From positions 1 to 38,518 of the forward strand of contig JAILMY010000212.1 in assembly GCA_024692165.1 (NCBI GenBank): a DNA stretch of 38,518 nt, given 5' to 3'. Source of the stretch: Butyrivibrio sp. (GTDB lineage: Bacteria > Bacillota > Clostridia > Lachnospirales > Lachnospiraceae). The position numbers and the translations under genes were made by a program. Shown here piece after piece: positions 23,187-30,372 of this stretch (its first letter is position 1; each line of letters opens with the position of its first letter). The notes below the pieces were generated by a model. The model worked only from the letters and a program-made list of their open reading frames with translations. It made no database searches and was not told the DNA's origin.

Positions 23187-24518
23187 ATGAAAAAGAAATT
23201 GGTATCTGTTTTATTATCAGCTGCTATGGGCGCTTCTCTTCTTGCAGGATGCGGAGCACAGGAAGCAGCAGAGACAGCACAGGATGCAGCTGAAACAGTT
23301 CAGGAAGCTGCAGAGACAGTTCAGGAAACTGCTACAGAAGTTGCAGAGACAGCTCAGGAAGCAGCTGAGGAGATCACAGACTATGGCACAGGCGAGATCA
23401 AGGTCTGGGTTGCTGATAACGTAGTGGATTTCACAAAGGGTGAGATCGACCAGTTCATGGCTGAGAACCCACAGTTTGCCGGCTACACAGTAACAGTAGA
23501 GGCTGTTGGTGAAGGTGATGCAGCAGGAAACATGATCACAGACGTTACGGCTGGTGCCGATATCTACGGATTCGCACAGGACCAGACAGCAAGACTTGTT
23601 GCAGCAGGTGCTCTTGAGGAGGTTGCTCCTGAGAACGTTGATGCAATCAAGAACGATAACGCAACAGGCGCAGTTGTAGCTGCTACAGTTGGTGATACAC
23701 TTTATGCTTATCCTATGACAGCAGATAACGGATATTTCCTTTACTATGATAAGAGTGTTGTAACAGATCCTTCTACACTTGAGGGAATTATTGAGCAGTG
23801 CGAAGCAGCAGGCAAGAACTTCTACATGGATCTTACAGGCTGGTACCAGGTAGCTTTCTTCTTTGGAACAGGCTGCACACTTACATTTGATTCAGACAAC
23901 GATGGTAACTTCACAGGATGCACAATGGACTACGATTCAGATAAGGGTCTTGTAGCTCTTAACGAGATGATCGAACTTGCTGGTTCTAAGTCATTCCAGC
24001 CTGGTTCTTCAGCAGGTGATGCTGTAAACTATGCAGCAATTATCGATGGAACATGGGATGCTGGAACAGTTAAGGATTTCCTTGGCGACAACTATGCATG
24101 CGCTAAGCTTCCTACATTCACAGGTTCTGATGGAAAGACATACCAGATGAGCGGCTTCAACGGATGTAAGCTCCTTGGTGTTAAGCCTCAGGAAGATGAG
24201 AACAAGCTTGCAGTATGTGATGCTCTTGCACAGTACCTTACAAGCGAGAAGGTTCAGCTTGACAGATACAATGCAGTTCAGTGGGGTCCTTCAAACCTTA
24301 AGGCTCAGTCAGACAGCGCTGTAAAGGCTGACGAAGCTCTTTCAGCTCTTTCAGAGCAGTTTGCTTACACAATTCCTCAGGGTCAGTATCCTGGTGACTA
24401 CTGGTCAAACGCAGAGGCTCTTGCAGGCGATGCACAGACAAAGCTTCAGGGCGCTTCAGAGGATGATGTAAAGGCAGCTCTTAAGAGCTTCCAGGATACA
24501 GTATCTGCACTTAGGTAA
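23187..24518 (+). CDS. Sugar ABC transporter substrate-binding lipoprotein (MalE/GanS type)
   Basis: A 443-residue lipoprotein precursor: signal MKKKLVSVLLSAAMGASLLAG with lipidated C22, then a linker of about 40 residues built from seven-residue repeats (AAETVQE and variants), then a family 1-type binding protein domain (from GEIKVWVADNVVDF; ADIYGFAQDQ; ADNGYFLYYDKS; C-terminal PQGQYPGDYWSNAE). It captures an oligosaccharide outside the membrane and delivers it to the permeases. GGAGG lies upstream of the ATG. Codon choice is strongly biased, as in highly expressed genes. The permeases, regulator and GH35 enzyme downstream suggest galactose-containing oligosaccharides, by analogy with the gan operon of Bacillus subtilis. 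Confidence 0.92.
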   Translation: MKKKLVSVLLSAAMGASLLAGCGAQEAAETAQDAAETVQEAAETVQETATEVAETAQEAAEEITDYGTGEIKVWVADNVVDFTKGEIDQFMAENPQFAGYTVTVEAVGEGDAAGNMITDVTAGADIYGFAQDQTARLVAAGALEEVAPENVDAIKNDNATGAVVAATVGDTLYAYPMTADNGYFLYYDKSVVTDPSTLEGIIEQCEAAGKNFYMDLTGWYQVAFFFGTGCTLTFDSDNDGNFTGCTMDYDSDKGLVALNEMIELAGSKSFQPGSSAGDAVNYAAIIDGTWDAGTVKDFLGDNYACAKLPTFTGSDGKTYQMSGFNGCKLLGVKPQEDENKLAVCDALAQYLTSEKVQLDRYNAVQWGPSNLKAQSDSAVKADEALSALSEQFAYTIPQGQYPGDYWSNAEALAGDAQTKLQGASEDDVKAALKSFQDTVSALR

Positions 24519-24520
24519 TC

Positions 24521-24596
24521 ACTTGGCGAGGTTTTTTCGAGCCTAGTGTACTACCTAGTTCTGGCGAGCACGAAGTGCGAGAGCAGAACTTCCTTG
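24521..24596 (+). repeat. Tandem-hairpin intercistronic element, copy A
   Basis: Hairpin I: ACTTGGC (24521-24527) pairs with GCCTAGT (24541-24547) with one T-T mismatch, enclosing GAGG, a T run and CGA. Hairpin II: GTTCTG (24558-24563) pairs with CAGAAC (24584-24589); an internal loop of GCGA opposite GAGAG leads to the inner stem GCAC/GTGC closed by a GAA triloop. The tail TTCCTTG is at 24590-24596. Lies between the binding protein gene and its terminator hairpin. Confidence 0.75.
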
Positions 24597-24615
24597 GAAA
24601 TAAAGGAAAATTAAT

Positions 24616-24648
24616 ACCGGCAGGAGCTTTGCCTTCTGCCGGTTTTTT
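24616..24648 (+). terminator. Terminator or attenuator hairpin between binding protein and permease genes
   Basis: ACCGGCAG (24616-24623) pairs with CTGCCGGT (24636-24643), followed by TTTTT. Partial termination here would give more binding protein than permease, as is common in such operons. Confidence 0.8.
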
Positions 24649-24671
24649 AAAAAACAAGTGGAGGAATCTAC

Positions 24672-26066
24672 ATGAGTAACGCGTCTGAGAAAAAAAGTAA
24701 TTCTGTCAGCACCTTCTTTTCTGCAGTAGGAAATATATTCAAGGTGATTGGAACTACTTTTGTTAATGGGGATTGGAAAACCAAGATATCCTATTTGATC
24801 ATGGGATTTGGTCAGATTGCCCGCGGCCAGTTTTTACGAGGCGGCGCTTTTTTGGCGATTGAGGCTTTATTTATATGGTTTGTATCAACTTTTGGAGGTA
24901 AGTATCTCTCCAAGCTCGGTACTTTGGGTACCATTGAAACTTATAAGAAAAACAGAAAGACAGTTTATGGAGACAACTCCTTCCTTATCCTTCTGTTTGG
25001 ACTTTTGACATTGTTCTTTATCCTGTTTTTGGTAATATGCTGGTATTTGAACATCAAGGATAACGCCAAGGAAGAGGAACTTATAAAGGCAGGCAAGAAG
25101 CTGCCCGGAAGTAAGGCGGATTTTCTTTCACTGTTTGATAATAATTTCGATAAAACACTTTTGGCTCTTCCGGTTACAGGCGTATTTATTTTCACCGTTT
25201 TGCCAATTGTTTTTATGATATGCGTCGCATTCACCAATTACGATGCTACCCACCAGGCACCCTCAAAGCTCTTTACCTGGGTTGGTTTTGCCAACTTTAA
25301 AAATCTGTTTTCTTTTGCGTCAGGTGGCTTTGGTAGTACTTTTGTCAGCGTTCTTATCTGGACTTTGGTCTGGGCGCTGCTGGCAACCTTCATCGATTAT
25401 TTCCTTGGCATCGCTGTTGCCATGCTTATCAATAAAAAGGGCATAAGATTTAAGAAGTTCTGGAGAACATGCCTTGTTATGACAATTGCTGTTCCTCAGT
25501 TCGTAAGTCTTTTGTATGTTTCAAAGATGTTTGATAATGCCGGAATTATCAACGGTACATTGATGAAGCTGGGAATTATCCAGAGTGCGATTCCTTTCTG
25601 GACAAATCCTACTCTGGCTAAGATCACAATAGTAGTAGTAAATATCTGGATTGGTATTCCATACCTGATGCTGATGGCTACAGGTCTTCTCATGAATATT
25701 CCTGCAGATCTTTACGAAAGCGCCAGCATTGACGGCGCAACACCATGGCAGATGTTCAGACACATCACAATGCCATATATGCTTTTTGTTACAGGACCTT
25801 ATCTTCTTAGTTCATACACAGGAAACCTTAACAACTTCAACGTAATCTATCTTTTGACAGGTGGTGGACCAAAGTCCATGAGCTATGCCGGAGGCGCCGG
25901 TGGTACAGACCTTCTGGTTACATGGCTCTATAAGATGACCATCAACGATACGGATTACAAGATGGCTGCGGTTATCGGTATCATGGTATTCATAGTTACA
26001 GCTTTGATATTCATGAATGCATATAACTTCCTGCCTTCAATCAAAGATGAGGAGGGATTCCAATAA
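24672..26066 (+). CDS. Sugar ABC transporter permease (MalF/GanP type)
   Basis: A 464-residue protein with an N-terminal extension of two spans (SYLIMGFGQIARGQFLRGG is characteristic of Firmicutes GanP/MdxF-type permeases), then about six spans of the transport domain. The ATPase-contact EAA loop reads ESASIDGATPWQMFRHITMP. The start is fixed by GGAGG ten bases upstream. Its stop overlaps the next start (TAATG), so the two permeases are made in equal amounts. No ATPase subunit is encoded in the operon, so a multi-task MsmX-like ATPase elsewhere is expected. Confidence 0.94.
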   Translation: MSNASEKKSNSVSTFFSAVGNIFKVIGTTFVNGDWKTKISYLIMGFGQIARGQFLRGGAFLAIEALFIWFVSTFGGKYLSKLGTLGTIETYKKNRKTVYGDNSFLILLFGLLTLFFILFLVICWYLNIKDNAKEEELIKAGKKLPGSKADFLSLFDNNFDKTLLALPVTGVFIFTVLPIVFMICVAFTNYDATHQAPSKLFTWVGFANFKNLFSFASGGFGSTFVSVLIWTLVWALLATFIDYFLGIAVAMLINKKGIRFKKFWRTCLVMTIAVPQFVSLLYVSKMFDNAGIINGTLMKLGIIQSAIPFWTNPTLAKITIVVVNIWIGIPYLMLMATGLLMNIPADLYESASIDGATPWQMFRHITMPYMLFVTGPYLLSSYTGNLNNFNVIYLLTGGGPKSMSYAGGAGGTDLLVTWLYKMTINDTDYKMAAVIGIMVFIVTALIFMNAYNFLPSIKDEEGFQ

Positions 26067-26941
26067 TGGCAAGAGAGAGTTCAATGAAAAGAAAACGAGC
26101 AGTCAGTAACTTTTTTGGCTATGTTGCTCTTATAATCATTACCATAATCTGGCTCTTCCCCTTTGTGGGTCTGGTCCTTGGAAGTTTTCGTTCCTATGAC
26201 GCAGCTGTTGAGTACGGCGGAATCGTAGATTACGTAATTCCCAAGCATTTTTCACTGGATAACTACAGGTTCGTCCTGGGCGGAGAGACCAATTACCTTA
26301 GATGGTATGGAAATACAGTAATAATTGCATTCTTCGTAGCTCTTTTCCAGATGATCATTATCCTCTGTGTAAGTTATGCACTGAGCCGTATGAGATTCGC
26401 AGGAAGAACTGCACTTATGAGATTCTGGTTTGTACTTGGAATGTTCCCGGGCTTCCTTACAATGATCTGTCTGTACTTCCTGTTAAAGGAGATGGGACTT
26501 ACCCAGGCAGGCGCTATCAAAGGTCTTATCCTGGTATCTGTAGCCAGCTCCGGTATGGGCTACTACGTATGTAAGGGATATTTCGATACAATTCCCAAGG
26601 CTCTCGACGAAGCTGCAAGAATTGACGGCGCTTCAAGAGCAAGAGTATTTTTCGAGATGATCCTTCCAATCAGTAAGCCTATCATCATTTATGCAGCTCT
26701 TGTTGCATTCATGGCTCCTTGGAATGACTATATCTTTGCTTCATATATCGCATTTGGTCATGATGCAAGCTACAACGTAGCTGTATCAATGTACAGGTGG
26801 ATGAACACCGGTGACTATCAGGGTTACTTCACCAGGTTCTGCGCCGGCGGTGTTCTGGTTGCTATACCGGTAACCTTGCTGTTTATGTTCCTGCAGAAGT
26901 ACTATGTCGAAGGTGTTACCGGCGGAGCAGTAAAGGGCTGA
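26066..26941 (+). CDS. Sugar ABC transporter permease (MalG/GanQ type)
   Basis: A 291-residue protein with six predicted spans and the EAA loop DEAARIDGASRARVFFEMIL followed by P, the hallmark of CUT1 inner-membrane partners that pair with a MalF-type subunit. The N-terminus (FFGYVALIIITIIWLFPFVGLVLGSF, in two parts) and the C-terminus (KYYVEGVTGGAVKG) are typical. Translationally coupled to the upstream permease. It is followed by two copies of the tandem-hairpin element rather than by a terminator. Confidence 0.94.
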   Translation: MARESSMKRKRAVSNFFGYVALIIITIIWLFPFVGLVLGSFRSYDAAVEYGGIVDYVIPKHFSLDNYRFVLGGETNYLRWYGNTVIIAFFVALFQMIIILCVSYALSRMRFAGRTALMRFWFVLGMFPGFLTMICLYFLLKEMGLTQAGAIKGLILVSVASSGMGYYVCKGYFDTIPKALDEAARIDGASRARVFFEMILPISKPIIIYAALVAFMAPWNDYIFASYIAFGHDASYNVAVSMYRWMNTGDYQGYFTRFCAGGVLVAIPVTLLFMFLQKYYVEGVTGGAVKG

Positions 26942-26943
26942 GA

Positions 26944-27016
26944 GAACCCGGCGAGGTATTATCGAGCCGAGGTTCGAACGTCTTACGGCGAGCGAAGCGA
27001 GAGCGTAAGTTCCTTG
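26944..27016 (+). repeat. Tandem-hairpin intercistronic element, copy B1
   Basis: Hairpin I: GAACC (26944-26948) and CGGC (26949-26952) pair with GCCG (26066-offset bases 26966-26969) and GGTTC (26971-26975) around one bulged A, enclosing GAGG, TATTAT and CGA. Hairpin II: CTTACG (26982-26987) pairs with CGTAAG (27004-27009) with the same GCGA/GAGAG internal loop and a minimal GC-GAA-GC tip. The tail TTCCTTG is at 27010-27016. Confidence 0.75.
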
Positions 27017-27023
27017 TGGTAGC

Positions 27024-27098
27024 ACTTGATGAGGTTTCGCACGAATCTGGTGTGAAAGTGTTCTGGCGAGCGCGAAGCACGAGAGCAGAACTTCCTTG
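27024..27098 (+). repeat. Tandem-hairpin intercistronic element, copy B2
   Basis: Hairpin I: ACTTGAT (27024-27030) pairs with ATCTGGT (27045-27051), including a T-T mismatch at the same place as copy A, enclosing GAGG and CGA. Hairpin II: GTTCTG (27060-27065) pairs with CAGAAC (27086-27091); the inner stem GCGC/GCAC has one C-A mismatch and a GAA triloop. The tail TTCCTTG is at 27092-27098, and its CCTT could pair with the GAGG ribosome site of the next gene. Confidence 0.75.
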
Positions 27099-27122
27099 AT
27101 ATTACAATTTGAGGACGTGGCA

Positions 27123-28121
27123 ATGTCTGACGAAAAGATTACAATTGAAGACGTGGCCAAAGCTCTTGGCATTTCCAAGACCACTGTCTCCCGGGCAATT
27201 TCCGGAAAGGGCAGGGTCGGAAGTGAAACAAGAGAAAAGGTCATGGAATTCATAGAAAAACATAATTACAGACCTAATGTCTCTGCAAAGGCTCTGGCTT
27301 CACAGCGCACCTACAATATTGGTGTGGTGTGGCCCGATGATTACAGCGCTGTGGATCTTCCTTTTTTTCAGCGCTGCATGATCGGAATGACGGAGGTTAC
27401 CTCCGGTGTCGGAGTGGATATTCTTATATCTCTTATTGCGGGGGATGATATTTCGGGGTTAAAAAGACTTGTTGAAAACCGCAAGGTTGATGGAATTATT
27501 CTCACCAGAACACTGGTGGAGGATATACCGGCTGCATATCTTAAGAATAGCGGACTACCTTTTGTGGTAGTGGGCAAGAGCAATGACCCGGAGATAATAT
27601 CTGTGGACAACGATAATTTCGGTGCCTGCAGAGAACTGACATCGATTCTTATTGCCAAAGGGCTTAAGAGACTGGCGCTTATAGGTGGCTCAACTAACCA
27701 CATAATCACTCAGACGCGGTATGAAGGTTACGCAGCTGCCTTTAAGGATGCCGGGCTTGCCATCAACAAGTCCCTGGTTTATTTGGATGTTGAGAGCACC
27801 CAGAGGATATCCGGTATACTGGATGAGCTGCTGAAAAAGAACGTGGATGGAGTCATCTGCATGGACGATTCACTGGCAGGTGAAGTGATTGCAAGGTGCA
27901 GAGAAAAACACATAAAGATCCCGTCTGACCTGAGGGTTGCATCCTTCTACAACAGTTCACTTCTGGAGGGAACTGTTCCTTCTGTTACGAGCCTCAACTT
28001 CAATGACAGAAATCTTGGAGCTGTTGCGGCAAAGACTCTTTTATCCATGGTCGAAGGCAAGGATACCGAGAGTCAGAAGCTCAAGAACTACGAGGTTGTC
28101 CTTAAGGACAGCACTAAATGA
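27123..28121 (+). CDS. LacI-family transcriptional regulator of the sugar operon
   Basis: ATG 27123 with GAGGA at 27111-27115 gives 332 residues; the upstream TTG at 27096 lies inside the repeat element and is rejected. The helix-turn-helix is at residues about 7-26 (TIEDVAKALGISKTTVSRAI), the hinge NVSAKALA at 52-59, and the periplasmic-binding-protein-like effector domain starts near residue 65 (YNIGVVWPDD). It likely represses the operon in the absence of its sugar, as GanR does in Bacillus. Located within the operon after the permeases; candidate operators lie at 22862-23159. Confidence 0.93.
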   Translation: MSDEKITIEDVAKALGISKTTVSRAISGKGRVGSETREKVMEFIEKHNYRPNVSAKALASQRTYNIGVVWPDDYSAVDLPFFQRCMIGMTEVTSGVGVDILISLIAGDDISGLKRLVENRKVDGIILTRTLVEDIPAAYLKNSGLPFVVVGKSNDPEIISVDNDNFGACRELTSILIAKGLKRLALIGGSTNHIITQTRYEGYAAAFKDAGLAINKSLVYLDVESTQRISGILDELLKKNVDGVICMDDSLAGEVIARCREKHIKIPSDLRVASFYNSSLLEGTVPSVTSLNFNDRNLGAVAAKTLLSMVEGKDTESQKLKNYEVVLKDSTK

Positions 28122-28227: not shown

Positions 28228-30372
28228 ATGAAAATAACGGAGAGTTCGCAGCTGGGATTTGATAATGTGAGCATTCTTGTGGATGGCAAGAGATGGTTCC
28301 CCATGATGGGAGAGATGCACTTTAGCAGATATCCCAAGGAAAACTGGGAGCAGGAGCTTTGCAAGATGAAGGCCGGGGGAATAGACATTGTTTCTCTGTA
28401 CGTTATCTGGATCCACCACGAGGAGATTCACGGAGAGTTTGATTTTTCCGGGAACAGATGCCTTAGGGATTTCCTTGAAACGATTAAAAAGTGTGGACTG
28501 TACAGTATCTTAAGGATCGGCCCCTGGGCCCATGGCGAAGCCAGAAACGGAGGTTTTCCGGACTGGCTCCTTGAGGATGCAAAAGAGAATGGGTACGAGG
28601 TAAGAACAGATGCGCCAAGGTATCTTGAGCATGTGAGAAGATTTTATGAAAAGACTTATGAACAGGCGAAGGGATACTTTATTAAGGACGGTGGTCCTGT
28701 TATCGGCATTCAGATAGAGAATGAGTATGGACACTGCGGTGGGAAAAACGGAGATGAAGGCGAGCAGCATATGAAGACTCTTCTTGCTATGGCAAAGGAG
28801 ATTGGCTTTGTTACTCCTATCTATACAGCCACAGGCTGGGGCGGAGCTGTCACCGGCGGAATGCTTCCTGTTATGGGAGGATACTGCGAAGCCCCTTGGG
28901 ACCAGAGACTTACAGAGATCGAACCCAGTGGAAATTACATTTTCACAAGGGAGAGAAATGATCACAATATCGGATCAGACCACGGCCTTGGAGCAGGCAT
29001 TACCTTTGATATGGATAAGTTCCCATTCCTTACAGCTGAGCTGGGAGGCGGACTTCAGGTAACTCATCACAGACGTCCCATAGCATCCGGCACAGATACA
29101 GCAGCAATGACCATGGTAAAGCTTGGCAGCGGAGCAAACCTTCTTGGTTACTACATGTACCACGGCGGCACCAATCCAAAGGGAAAACTCACAACTTTGC
29201 AGGAGACAAGAGCAACCGGGTATCCCAATGATCTTCCTGCCTACTCCTATGATTTCAACGCTCCCCTTAGAGAGTTTGGGCAGATGGAGGACACCTATAG
29301 AGAGGTGAGACTTCTTTCCACATTCATCCATGATTTTGGAAATGACCTCTGCGATATGGCTTACACAGAGCAGCCCGGTAATCCTCTTAAACCCGATAAT
29401 CTGACGAGCCTTCGCAGCGCTGTCAGATGCAAGAAAGAAGGTTCTTCCAGCAGGGGGTATCTTTTTGTCAACAACTACCAGAGAAGATACCAGATGGCGC
29501 AGCACAAGGCGGTAGAGCTTAAGGCCTACGCTGAGGATGGCAAGACTGTTCTGGCGAAGTTCCCGGCCAGGGATATAAATAACGGCGACTTTTTCTTTTA
29601 CCCATTTAATATGCCTATAGGGAACGCAAGGGTAATGGTGGATGCAACTCCGCTATGCATTCTGGATAATGGCGATGGCCACAGCACCTATGTGTTCTAC
29701 AAAAGCGCTGCGCAGGCAGAAGCTACCATCAACGCAGATGGCGATCTTGATGGCAATAAGATTATCATTATAACCAGGGATGAGGCACTGCACTCCGCTA
29801 AGGTAATGATCGGCGGCAAGGAGCACCTGATCATTTCAGATGCTGAGCCTGTCACCAAGGCTGACGGCAGTGTAAGTCTTATGTTTGCAACAGATAAGGC
29901 ACAGAGTCTCACCTTCAGAATATGCCCGGCACTTCCCAAAGCGCCGGAGGGCTTTTCCAAGGTTGATACAGATTCTGAAGGCTTTGAAGTATATGAGAGT
30001 ATCAGGCATTTCTCAAATGACGGGCAGGTCAACCTGACTGAGGAAGATTTTGGCTTATATGCCATTTCCGTTAAGGAACTTAACCCTGAGGCTAATGAAG
30101 TCTATATGCTCATGGACTATGTGGGAGATTGCGCAAATTTCTGCATCGGTAAAGAGATTGCCACTGACAGTTTTTATACAGGACAGCTTTGGGAGATCGG
30201 TCTTAAGAGATATTGCCGCGGGGAGCTTGAGGCTAAAGTGCAGATAAATCCTCTTTTGGAAGAAGATAAAGAGAAGATATATCTGCAAGAATGGCCTGAA
30301 ATGCAGAATGGAAAGGCCTGCAGCTTAAGAGGTGCACGTCTTTTGACCCAGTATGATGTGAAAATAAGCTGA
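28228..30372 (+). CDS. Glycoside hydrolase family 35 beta-galactosidase, cytoplasmic
   Basis: A 714-residue enzyme without signal peptide. The N-terminal TIM barrel holds the GH35 signature GGPVIGIQIENEYG (E164, E166; the second is the expected proton donor) and a likely nucleophile E271 in LTAELGGG. The YxxHGGTNPKG segment (MYHGGTNPKG) is also typical. The C-terminal 350 residues are beta-sandwich-type domains. It removes terminal beta-galactose from oligosaccharides. With the CUT1 transporter and LacI gene it forms an import-and-hydrolysis unit; in the B. subtilis gan operon the equivalent enzyme is GH42. The ribosome site is CGGAGAA. Its transcription must pass the terminator hairpin just upstream or start before it. 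Confidence 0.92.
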   Translation: MKITESSQLGFDNVSILVDGKRWFPMMGEMHFSRYPKENWEQELCKMKAGGIDIVSLYVIWIHHEEIHGEFDFSGNRCLRDFLETIKKCGLYSILRIGPWAHGEARNGGFPDWLLEDAKENGYEVRTDAPRYLEHVRRFYEKTYEQAKGYFIKDGGPVIGIQIENEYGHCGGKNGDEGEQHMKTLLAMAKEIGFVTPIYTATGWGGAVTGGMLPVMGGYCEAPWDQRLTEIEPSGNYIFTRERNDHNIGSDHGLGAGITFDMDKFPFLTAELGGGLQVTHHRRPIASGTDTAAMTMVKLGSGANLLGYYMYHGGTNPKGKLTTLQETRATGYPNDLPAYSYDFNAPLREFGQMEDTYREVRLLSTFIHDFGNDLCDMAYTEQPGNPLKPDNLTSLRSAVRCKKEGSSSRGYLFVNNYQRRYQMAQHKAVELKAYAEDGKTVLAKFPARDINNGDFFFYPFNMPIGNARVMVDATPLCILDNGDGHSTYVFYKSAAQAEATINADGDLDGNKIIIITRDEALHSAKVMIGGKEHLIISDAEPVTKADGSVSLMFATDKAQSLTFRICPALPKAPEGFSKVDTDSEGFEVYESIRHFSNDGQVNLTEEDFGLYAISVKELNPEANEVYMLMDYVGDCANFCIGKEIATDSFYTGQLWEIGLKRYCRGELEAKVQINPLLEEDKEKIYLQEWPEMQNGKACSLRGARLLTQYDVKIS

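Follow-up and report, generated by a model that had tools for sequence, protein, structure and literature searches.

Palindromic repeats are common, their function is still debated, and the repetitive extragenic palindromic (REP) sequences of Escherichia coli are the main test case. Here we describe a two-hairpin repeat that came to light as three copies (A, B1 and B2) in a sugar operon on a 38,518-nucleotide stretch of Butyrivibrio sp. (assembly GCA_024692165.1, contig JAILMY010000212.1, positions 1 to 38,518 of the forward strand), referred to below, over its whole length, as the window. The element belongs to a family of palindromic repeats, non-autonomous and dispersed in Butyrivibrio, that has relatives in other Lachnospiraceae genera. 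We propose, giving the reading as a whole about an even chance of being right, that its copies, situated at stop codons and transcribed as folding RNA, would insulate neighbouring cistrons from each other.

According to the portions of PMC3733652 and PMC12306157 that deal with them, REP sequences and bacterial interspersed mosaic elements (BIMEs), with their GTAG and CGTC superfamilies, are dispersed palindromes of 20-40 bp that carry alternative complementary stem residues and lie mostly behind coding regions. An E. coli REP located no more than 15 nucleotides (nt) from a stop codon is reported to lead to ribosome stalling, mRNA cleavage and a lower level of the upstream protein (Liang et al. 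2015, as cited in a passage of PMC12306157). BOX elements of Streptococcus pneumoniae are presented in part of PMC3049150 as composites of boxA, boxB and boxC with terminal inverted repeats, for which an insertion sequence (IS) has been proposed as helper; the same part states that BOX supplies the stop codon of 36 coding sequences. Inside open reading frames (ORFs), Rickettsia palindromic elements (RPEs) are repeats that lie in frame and encode a recurrent peptide, as set out in sections of PMC10969869 and PMC2996958 (Ogata et al., cited there), and PARCEL elements, in a section of PMC2996958, are coding palindromes in tandem that specify an amphipathic protein repeat of 25 residues.

The tip of hairpin II together with the tail behind it served as seed pattern for a search of the genome of origin, with the reversed pattern as control. 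The exact pattern gave 5 matches against 0 in the control; with up to two mismatches there were 35 against 26, so that this longer list is largely chance and was filtered by eye. Five of the 35 matches had no locus, and from the 30 that had one, 16 copies were taken into an alignment (A2) and 14 were excluded as chance matches, second copies or fragments, nine of them judged from their context and five (L026, L029, L031, L034, L035) from the match line alone. In A2, 97.2% of the 288 cells are paired and 13 of the 18 base pairs have changed on both sides, as against only 13-43% of cells paired when the structure is slid by 1-3 columns; RNAalifold, given the alignment as its sole input, returned the same two hairpins. 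The covariance model built from A2 comprises 84 model positions and two hairpins, and the unit it describes is about 84 nt long, with two irregular hairpins separated by a short linker and mostly followed by TTCCTT plus one base. Searched with it, the genome of origin yields 31 matches at E ≤ 1, and 28 still remain at E ≤ 0.005; the window holds three, copies A, B1 and B2 (Table 1).

When 97 distinct Butyrivibrio copies were fitted to this model, 97.9% of 1649 cells were paired and 17 of the 18 pairs had changed on both sides, against 27-37% of cells paired in slid structures, and none of 500 shuffles reached any of five measures. Watson-Crick pairs occupy 1589 cells; among the other combinations, G·U outnumbers A·C on the transcribed strand (26 versus 8). 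Hairpin I continues in an outer stem beyond a T·T mismatch that is kept in 90 of the 97 rows, and close to the tip of the hairpin a tandem GA/GA step is kept in 91; hairpin II has a further such step in 82 rows, with 12 rows gapped there. Unpaired yet constant, the mismatch and the tandem steps argue against mere palindrome correction during replication as the source of the pairing. At the foot of hairpin II the base after CGT is the first base of the stem and covaries with its partner (G-C in 72 of 97 rows, C-G in 15), and no GTAG is found there. The tails read TTCCTTG in 31 rows, TTCCTTA in 20 and TTCCTTT in 7 (58 in total), the remainder being scattered. A kink-turn reading of the tandem G·A steps was dropped by eye, as their spacing is unfit.

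A sequence-only reading of the window had set out the letters and stems of hairpins I and II, the TTCCTTG tails and the GCGAAGC tip of B1 and B2, all of which are present in the three copies as described; the copies proved longer than it had stated, and the outer stem of hairpin I and a third helix in copy A had escaped it. Its argument that paired changes point to a selected structure is borne out by the covariation found among the copies, the lack of which it had named as a ground for refutation. Judged by comparison of the copies, the pairing is selected as structure and includes fixed non-Watson-Crick steps.

Below hairpin I comes the third helix, stem 0. Copy A forms it from TAGGTA and TACCTA, a pairing that involves the last sense codon and some of the stop codon; five of these six pairs enter the helix count. 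The Watson-Crick run at this place averages 2.46 pairs in 94 Butyrivibrio copies, as against 1.87 +/- 0.08 with swapped flanks, and 3.42 as against 2.11 +/- 0.12 in 52 matches from other genera. At least four pairs are formed in 24 of the 94 (one of which, L187:805-863, is a fragment), with highly varied sequences, and in 22 of the 52; in the other printed rows that have the helix, the stop codon usually stands, by eye, at its inner edge.

Position relative to genes was assessed in 98 copies, left from 105 model matches after identical contexts had been dropped. Their 82 sources are the genome of origin, the best matches of relatives and named Butyrivibrio records; the sample leans to high scores, and neighbouring genes are simple longest-ORF picks. 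The nearest upstream ORF is on the strand of the element in 94 of the 98 copies: both neighbours share that strand in 81 of these, 8 lack a downstream ORF within the locus and 5 have a convergent one. Of the remaining four, two lack an upstream ORF and two had been marked as lying within one; the latter is true of L122, and the other marked copy has a stop codon in sense at a distance of 15 nt or less. The sense strand and intercistronic position that the sequence-only reading gave to the window copies are supported, and to them we add the main landmark, which it had overlooked, the stop codon: in 74 of 98 copies a sense ORF stops no more than 15 nt from where the hairpin I stem starts, and in 64 the distance is 0-7 nt. 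The distances peak at 2 nt (28 copies), 7 nt (13) and 0 nt (10); 8 of the 74 close stops would lie in the hairpin I stem itself, perhaps because the wrong ORF was picked. A further four copies have the stop codon at 17-50 nt, and 20 have no such ORF, tandem second copies like B2 among them. Elements beginning GGCTGAGAG often supply the TGA themselves, as copy B1 does for its permease gene.

Such closeness to stop codons also suits a REP-like translational brake, in which, by analogy, a hairpin within 15 nt of the stop codon would stall the terminating ribosome, leading to mRNA cleavage and less upstream protein; the 15-nt rule is given in a passage of PMC12306157, and the 74 close copies obey it. 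We think a brake unlikely; the genes that copies follow often have products that would be plentiful, the window's binding protein among them, which would speak against a strong brake. That the element is an intrinsic terminator or attenuator seems highly improbable: a terminator-like hairpin with a T run does lie downstream of copy A, but it is separate from the element (24617-24648), the 58 copies with the common tails end in TTCCTT plus one base rather than in a T run, and 81 of 98 copies stand between co-directional ORFs. A riboswitch or a regulator specific to sugar operons might be suspected from the three copies in one such operon, to which the sequence-only reading had linked the element, and from the ABC permeases that make up 29 of 75 upstream proteins. 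The other upstream proteins are diverse, with three PNPase-like and three MutS-like among them, the 72 downstream proteins are even more mixed, up to 45 matches occur in a genome, and placement follows the upstream stop codon. The diversity of the neighbours refutes such a role as a general reading and leaves it a negligible probability; the link to one operon gives way to a dispersed family.

In the tail, ACTTCCTTA resembles the 3' end of 16S rRNA. The tail was tried as an anti-Shine-Dalgarno sequence and rejected: the mean pairing run was 5.69 over its own downstream 120 nt, compared with 5.83 +/- 0.09 for swapped and 5.76 +/- 0.08 for shuffled controls, and 4.93 for upstream sequence, compared with 5.10 and 5.27.

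The fold, the sense orientation and the closeness to stop codons are read directly from the sequences, and from them we infer that the intercistronic copies act at the mRNA level. While it occupies the stop codon, a ribosome would cover stem 0 and the foot of hairpin I, and in terminating would melt that foot, plus stem 0 where present, so that on this proposal the full fold and termination would be mutually exclusive. After release of the ribosome the RNA would refold beside or over the stop codon, and the two hairpins could hinder sliding of the ribosome and reinitiation into the next cistron as well as form a barrier to 3' to 5' exonucleases; both neighbours in one transcript would then be expressed more independently. 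We can extend this proposal, tentatively and with doubts that outweigh our confidence, to a mobile two-hairpin cassette, gated by the ribosome at stop codons, that would set the coupling of cistrons. Some copies would recruit the last codons of their host into the basal helix, the full fold forming only without a terminating ribosome; the modules would be exchangeable as units, and the opposite strand would repeatedly have been built in frame into protein linkers, for example the histidine-rich ones of CobW- and LarC-type metal chaperones.

The model was applied to 99 genomes of relatives, 61 from the genus and 38 from the order's other families. With a threshold of E ≤ 0.01, 54 of the 61 Butyrivibrio genomes, that of origin included, hold between 1 and 45 matches each, and none of the 38 holds any. 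In a sample of the Lachnospiraceae, 86 of 299 genomes match at the same threshold, two of them belonging to the genus and the remaining 84 (of 297) having mostly weaker best scores; of 291 genomes sampled across the class, 7 match at E ≤ 0.001, six of them members of the family. Samples of more than 40 genomes were scored with stricter filters, so that their counts are lower bounds. Among the matches from other genera that were read, the hairpin I unit is steadier, and hairpin II is variable and at times holds a further unit of the hairpin I kind; some copies are arrayed in tandem, repeating about every 91 nt.

Some individual loci deserve mention. Four loci of other genera (L296, L297, L298 and L300) show tandem hairpin I units spaced about 91-115 nt apart. 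In another four (L285, L295, L379 and L380) copies lie in both orientations between ORFs of about 180 and about 133 residues, which, going by length, we presume may be ribosomal-protein genes. In G329 (L287, 1501-1582) the 16S and 5S rRNA genes have an element between them that runs antisense to their operon, and L367 and L368 contain an element sequence like it.

Rfam 15 gave no gathering match in the window, none at the copies at E up to 5 (24400-27200), and, at E up to 1, none covering an element at 20 loci from other genera; annotation based on Rfam would thus miss the element, and the sequence-only reading, which knew of no named family for it, is supported. In the literature on Butyrivibrio, no title or abstract start among the matches listed describes the family. 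A viral origin was considered and rejected, since the 79 stretches of viral contigs that match the tip-plus-tail pattern, inspected by eye with 30 bases upstream and 15 downstream, did not include any recognisable element; we attribute them to chance.

Turnover can be followed at the junction between the permease and LacI-type genes, which was compared across 30 genomes of the genus, that of origin included. The model finds an element 3' of the permease in 10 of the 30 loci. Elements of the standard type occupy six junctions (L305, L307, L321, L322, L327, L332), and a double hairpin I form occurs in L313 and L333. By eye, an unrelated long hairpin replaces hairpin I in L325 and L326, with hairpin II and the tail kept; L308, L310 and L320 retain the 3' end of the element only, and bits of hairpin I remain in L316 and L330. 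Two loci that lack the element, L311 and L324, have by eye an overlapping TGATG; like the hairpin replaced in L325 and L326, this counts in favour of the proposed insulation. Elements behind related upstream proteins (at least 55% identity, 47 pairs, some of which may be paralogs) are on average 80% identical, as compared with 73% for unrelated pairs, so that some inheritance is visible. In eight pairs whose upstream proteins are 95-98% identical, the elements are only 67-85% identical in six and 91-98% in two. The element probably behaves as a mobile or exchangeable repeat. In a further alignment (A3), compensated changes are found nearly without wobble intermediates, even behind related genes, an observation that is only partly explained.

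If the copies were mobile DNA ends recognised by an IS200/IS605 or REP-associated tyrosine (RAYT; Y1) transposase, two imperfect hairpins in a short unit would be in character, as they resemble such ends, and Y1_Tnp genes are present in 49 of 63 genus genomes. Element and Y1_Tnp do not go together in the genomes compared, however: G024 and G033 (99% and 100% complete) hold 29 and 28 element matches and no Y1_Tnp, G041 holds 8 Y1_Tnp and no element match, and 2 of 30 Y1 loci have a copy in their flank. In the absence of co-occurrence in the genomes compared, a Y1 transposase was rejected as partner, and we consider recognised ends of this kind very unlikely. No partner transposase was identified, Y1_Tnp being the only family tested, and no match to a mobile-element end, which the sequence-only reading had named as a sign against it, was found with Rfam and Y1_Tnp, the only sets used.

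Copies also occur inside at least seven ORFs among the 63 genus genomes, all of them antisense and in the same frame, with the recurrent peptide KEV..S..EH..TS. In the genome of origin, the copy at L122 lies antisense and in frame within a 330-residue HAD-type ORF, and all ten aligned orthologs (ten of eleven, the partial match L396 being excluded) are 19 residues shorter at the site of the element; the site is not a clean empty one, as the orthologs carry a short stretch of other residues there. Six further ORFs, among the matches listed, were reached through a search for the peptide in the 63 genomes and through a further set of matches. Four of the hosts are CobW-type proteins, from G028, G019, G005 and G049; G005 also contributes a nickel-insertion protein of LarC type and a LiaF-type membrane protein, the latter with three tandem antisense copies. 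In the CobW-type proteins the copies stand at two places in a histidine-rich linker, where the alignment is uncertain, and this brings the independent sites to four or five. Excluded from the count were G060 (an open frame of 158 codons at L437, with no ORF of at least 90 residues found), G016 (internal stop) and short antisense ORFs in L438 and L439. In two frames, the antisense strand is open in 50 and 52 of 84 copies as against 39-40% in shuffles, a modest excess by which a coding frame is only moderately favoured. The LarC-type protein at L435 has a histidine-rich linker in which a stretch encoded by the element is accompanied by incomplete repeats of that peptide; the palindrome may possibly have been domesticated here as a metal-binding linker.

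A number of observations weigh against insulation by a folded RNA. When folded singly, the three window copies have z scores of -0.28, -1.47 and -1.11, not unusually stable relative to shuffles, and the predicted minimum contains the full family structure for copy A only, hairpin I only for B1 and neither hairpin for B2; the case for structure thus rests on comparison and not on energy. Stem 0 is not general in Butyrivibrio, with a run of only 1-2 pairs in 63 of 94 copies, and the tail pairs with its own downstream or upstream sequence no more than in controls. At the permease-LacI junction, 15 of the 30 loci, L311 and L324 included, showed neither an element nor a remnant that we could recognise. 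Across related junctions (at least 55%) the pair changes amount to 221 two-sided and paired, 8 one-sided and paired and 13 broken, tallies that count sequence pairs and not independent events, and G·U pairs fill very few cells (26 of 1649). Slow compensatory evolution of an RNA should leave more intermediates, and exchange of whole, already paired copies fits better. Copies inside ORFs score 81-99.5 bits with the model although the mRNA there is the opposite strand, and 9 of 56 matches from other genera have both neighbours on the opposite strand. Equal occurrence on the two strands, which the sequence-only reading would have counted against itself, is not seen in the Butyrivibrio sample, where the strands are unequal; in other genera both orientations do occur.

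The strongest alternative is selfish palindromic DNA that does least harm behind stop codons, with a fold that would serve its own spread, for example as a hairpin in single-stranded DNA, and with no function for the host. It is favoured by junctions that hold different versions, remnants or nothing, by copies that lie in frame within ORFs (in the single case compared, all 10 aligned orthologs lack the copy), by the near lack of wobble intermediates and by the two orientations in other genera. Given this turnover, the copies in ORFs and the mixed orientations, it remains strong, and we regard it as a serious possibility, if on balance probably not the answer. Against it, the sampled Butyrivibrio copies outside ORFs are sense and near a stop codon, whereas harm avoidance alone would permit antisense copies too, and no association with Y1_Tnp, the family tested, was seen in G024, G033 and G041.

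Features of the window are collected in Table 1. The start of the LacI-type gene was set by inspection at the ATG at 27123 and not at the TTG at 27096 within the B2 tail. Placed behind copy A and ahead of the first permease gene, the terminator-like hairpin with its T run could let the binding protein be expressed more than the permeases. Given a family 35 glycosyl hydrolase encoded further downstream, galactosides may be what the operon handles.

Table 1. Copies of the element and neighbouring features in the window
Feature	Position	Strand	Remarks
Copy A, whole model match	24507-24596	+	Covariance-model match, 78.1 bits; between binding-protein and permease genes
Copy A stem 0, 5' arm TAGGTA	24512-24517	+	Pairs with TACCTA 24552-24557; end of last codons and first two stop-codon bases
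TAA stop codon, binding-protein gene	24516-24518	+	At copy A stem 0; ORF 23187-24518
Copy A hairpin I, stem GGC/GCC	24520-24548	+	
Copy A stem 0, 3' arm TACCTA	24552-24557	+	
Copy A hairpin II, outer stem GTTCTG/CAGAAC	24558-24589	+	
Copy A tail TTCCTTG	24590-24596	+	
Terminator-like hairpin and T run, 3' of copy A, outside the family	24617-24648	+	Fold of 24612-24652, z -4.95
Copy B1, whole model match	26932-27016	+	Covariance-model match, 91.5 bits; after second permease gene
TGA stop codon, second permease gene	26939-26941	+	Within 5' end of copy B1
Copy B1 hairpin I, stem CGGC/GCCG	26944-26975	+	
Copy B1 hairpin II, outer stem CTTACG/CGTAAG	26982-27009	+	
Copy B1 tail TTCCTTG	27010-27016	+	
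Copy B2, model match (model positions 8-84)	27017-27098	+	Covariance-model match, 65 bits; adjoins 3' end of B1
Copy B2 hairpin I, stem GAT/ATC	27022-27053	+	
Copy B2 hairpin II, outer stem GTTCTG/CAGAAC	27060-27091	+	
Copy B2 tail TTCCTTG	27092-27098	+	
Extracellular solute-binding protein gene, upstream of copy A	23187-24518	+	PF13416
ABC permease gene, downstream of copy A	24672-26066	+	PF00528
ABC permease gene, upstream of B1	26066-26941	+	PF00528
LacI-type regulator gene	27123-28121	+	PF00356, PF13377
Glycosyl hydrolase family 35 gene, downstream of LacI-type gene	28228-30372		

The geometry of the family, sense strand with the stop codon 0-7 nt ahead of hairpin I in 64 of the 98 sampled copies, is tight, and one and the same junction offers present, altered and absent copies across 30 genomes, so that whether such repeats act at translation termination becomes directly testable. 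The copies inside ORFs place in-frame protein palindromes outside Rickettsia, Wolbachia and Methanocaldococcus, the groups named in the source passages, and two families of metal chaperones, CobW-type and LarC-type, are among the hosts.

The 18-nt tip of hairpin II, GGCGAGCGAAGCGAGAGC, recurs outside the element. It occurs in unrelated phyla, in part within complementary stems, and at least four flanking pairs accompany it in 15 of 56 non-Butyrivibrio occurrences among the matches listed. It is present, letter for letter in the stems, in Bradyrhizobium and Microvirga repeats starting (C)GTCATTCCGG, which look CGTC-type, as judged without a consensus comparison; the shared tip may reflect either common origin or convergence on a stable tip. 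The same tip is also found in repeats of Coriobacteriales Cf509_bin7 and in a Curtissbacteria contig.

Like REP sequences, the Butyrivibrio element is dispersed in many copies per genome (1-45 in 54 of 61 genus genomes), carries complementary stem variants and lies in many copies within 15 nt of a stop codon (74 of 98). Unlike them, it consists of two hairpins over 84 model positions rather than a single hairpin of 20-40 bp, has neither the GTAG tag nor a constant CGTC tag, shows, in the genomes compared, no RAYT/Y1_Tnp association like that of GTAG-type REPs and, in the Butyrivibrio sample, keeps a single orientation relative to the upstream gene. As it has neither the single-hairpin size nor a constant tag nor a Y1 transposase association, we do not class it as a REP. 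With BOX, a repeat of Streptococcus pneumoniae and thus of another Gram-positive group, it shares by description a modular build of stem-loop repeats in variable number; strand fixation behind stop codons distinguishes the Butyrivibrio element and is not among the BOX features given in the source passages. The small minority of copies that lie in frame inside ORFs and encode a recurrent peptide can be likened by description to RPEs, although in Butyrivibrio they are exceptional and all antisense, most sampled copies being sense at stop codons. Tandem coding palindromes such as the triple copy at L398 likewise recall PARCEL elements by description, the amphipathic 25-residue repeat being a PARCEL feature. 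By analogy, then, the element may act in the manner of REP and BOX repeats where it follows genes, and in that of RPEs where it lies within ORFs.

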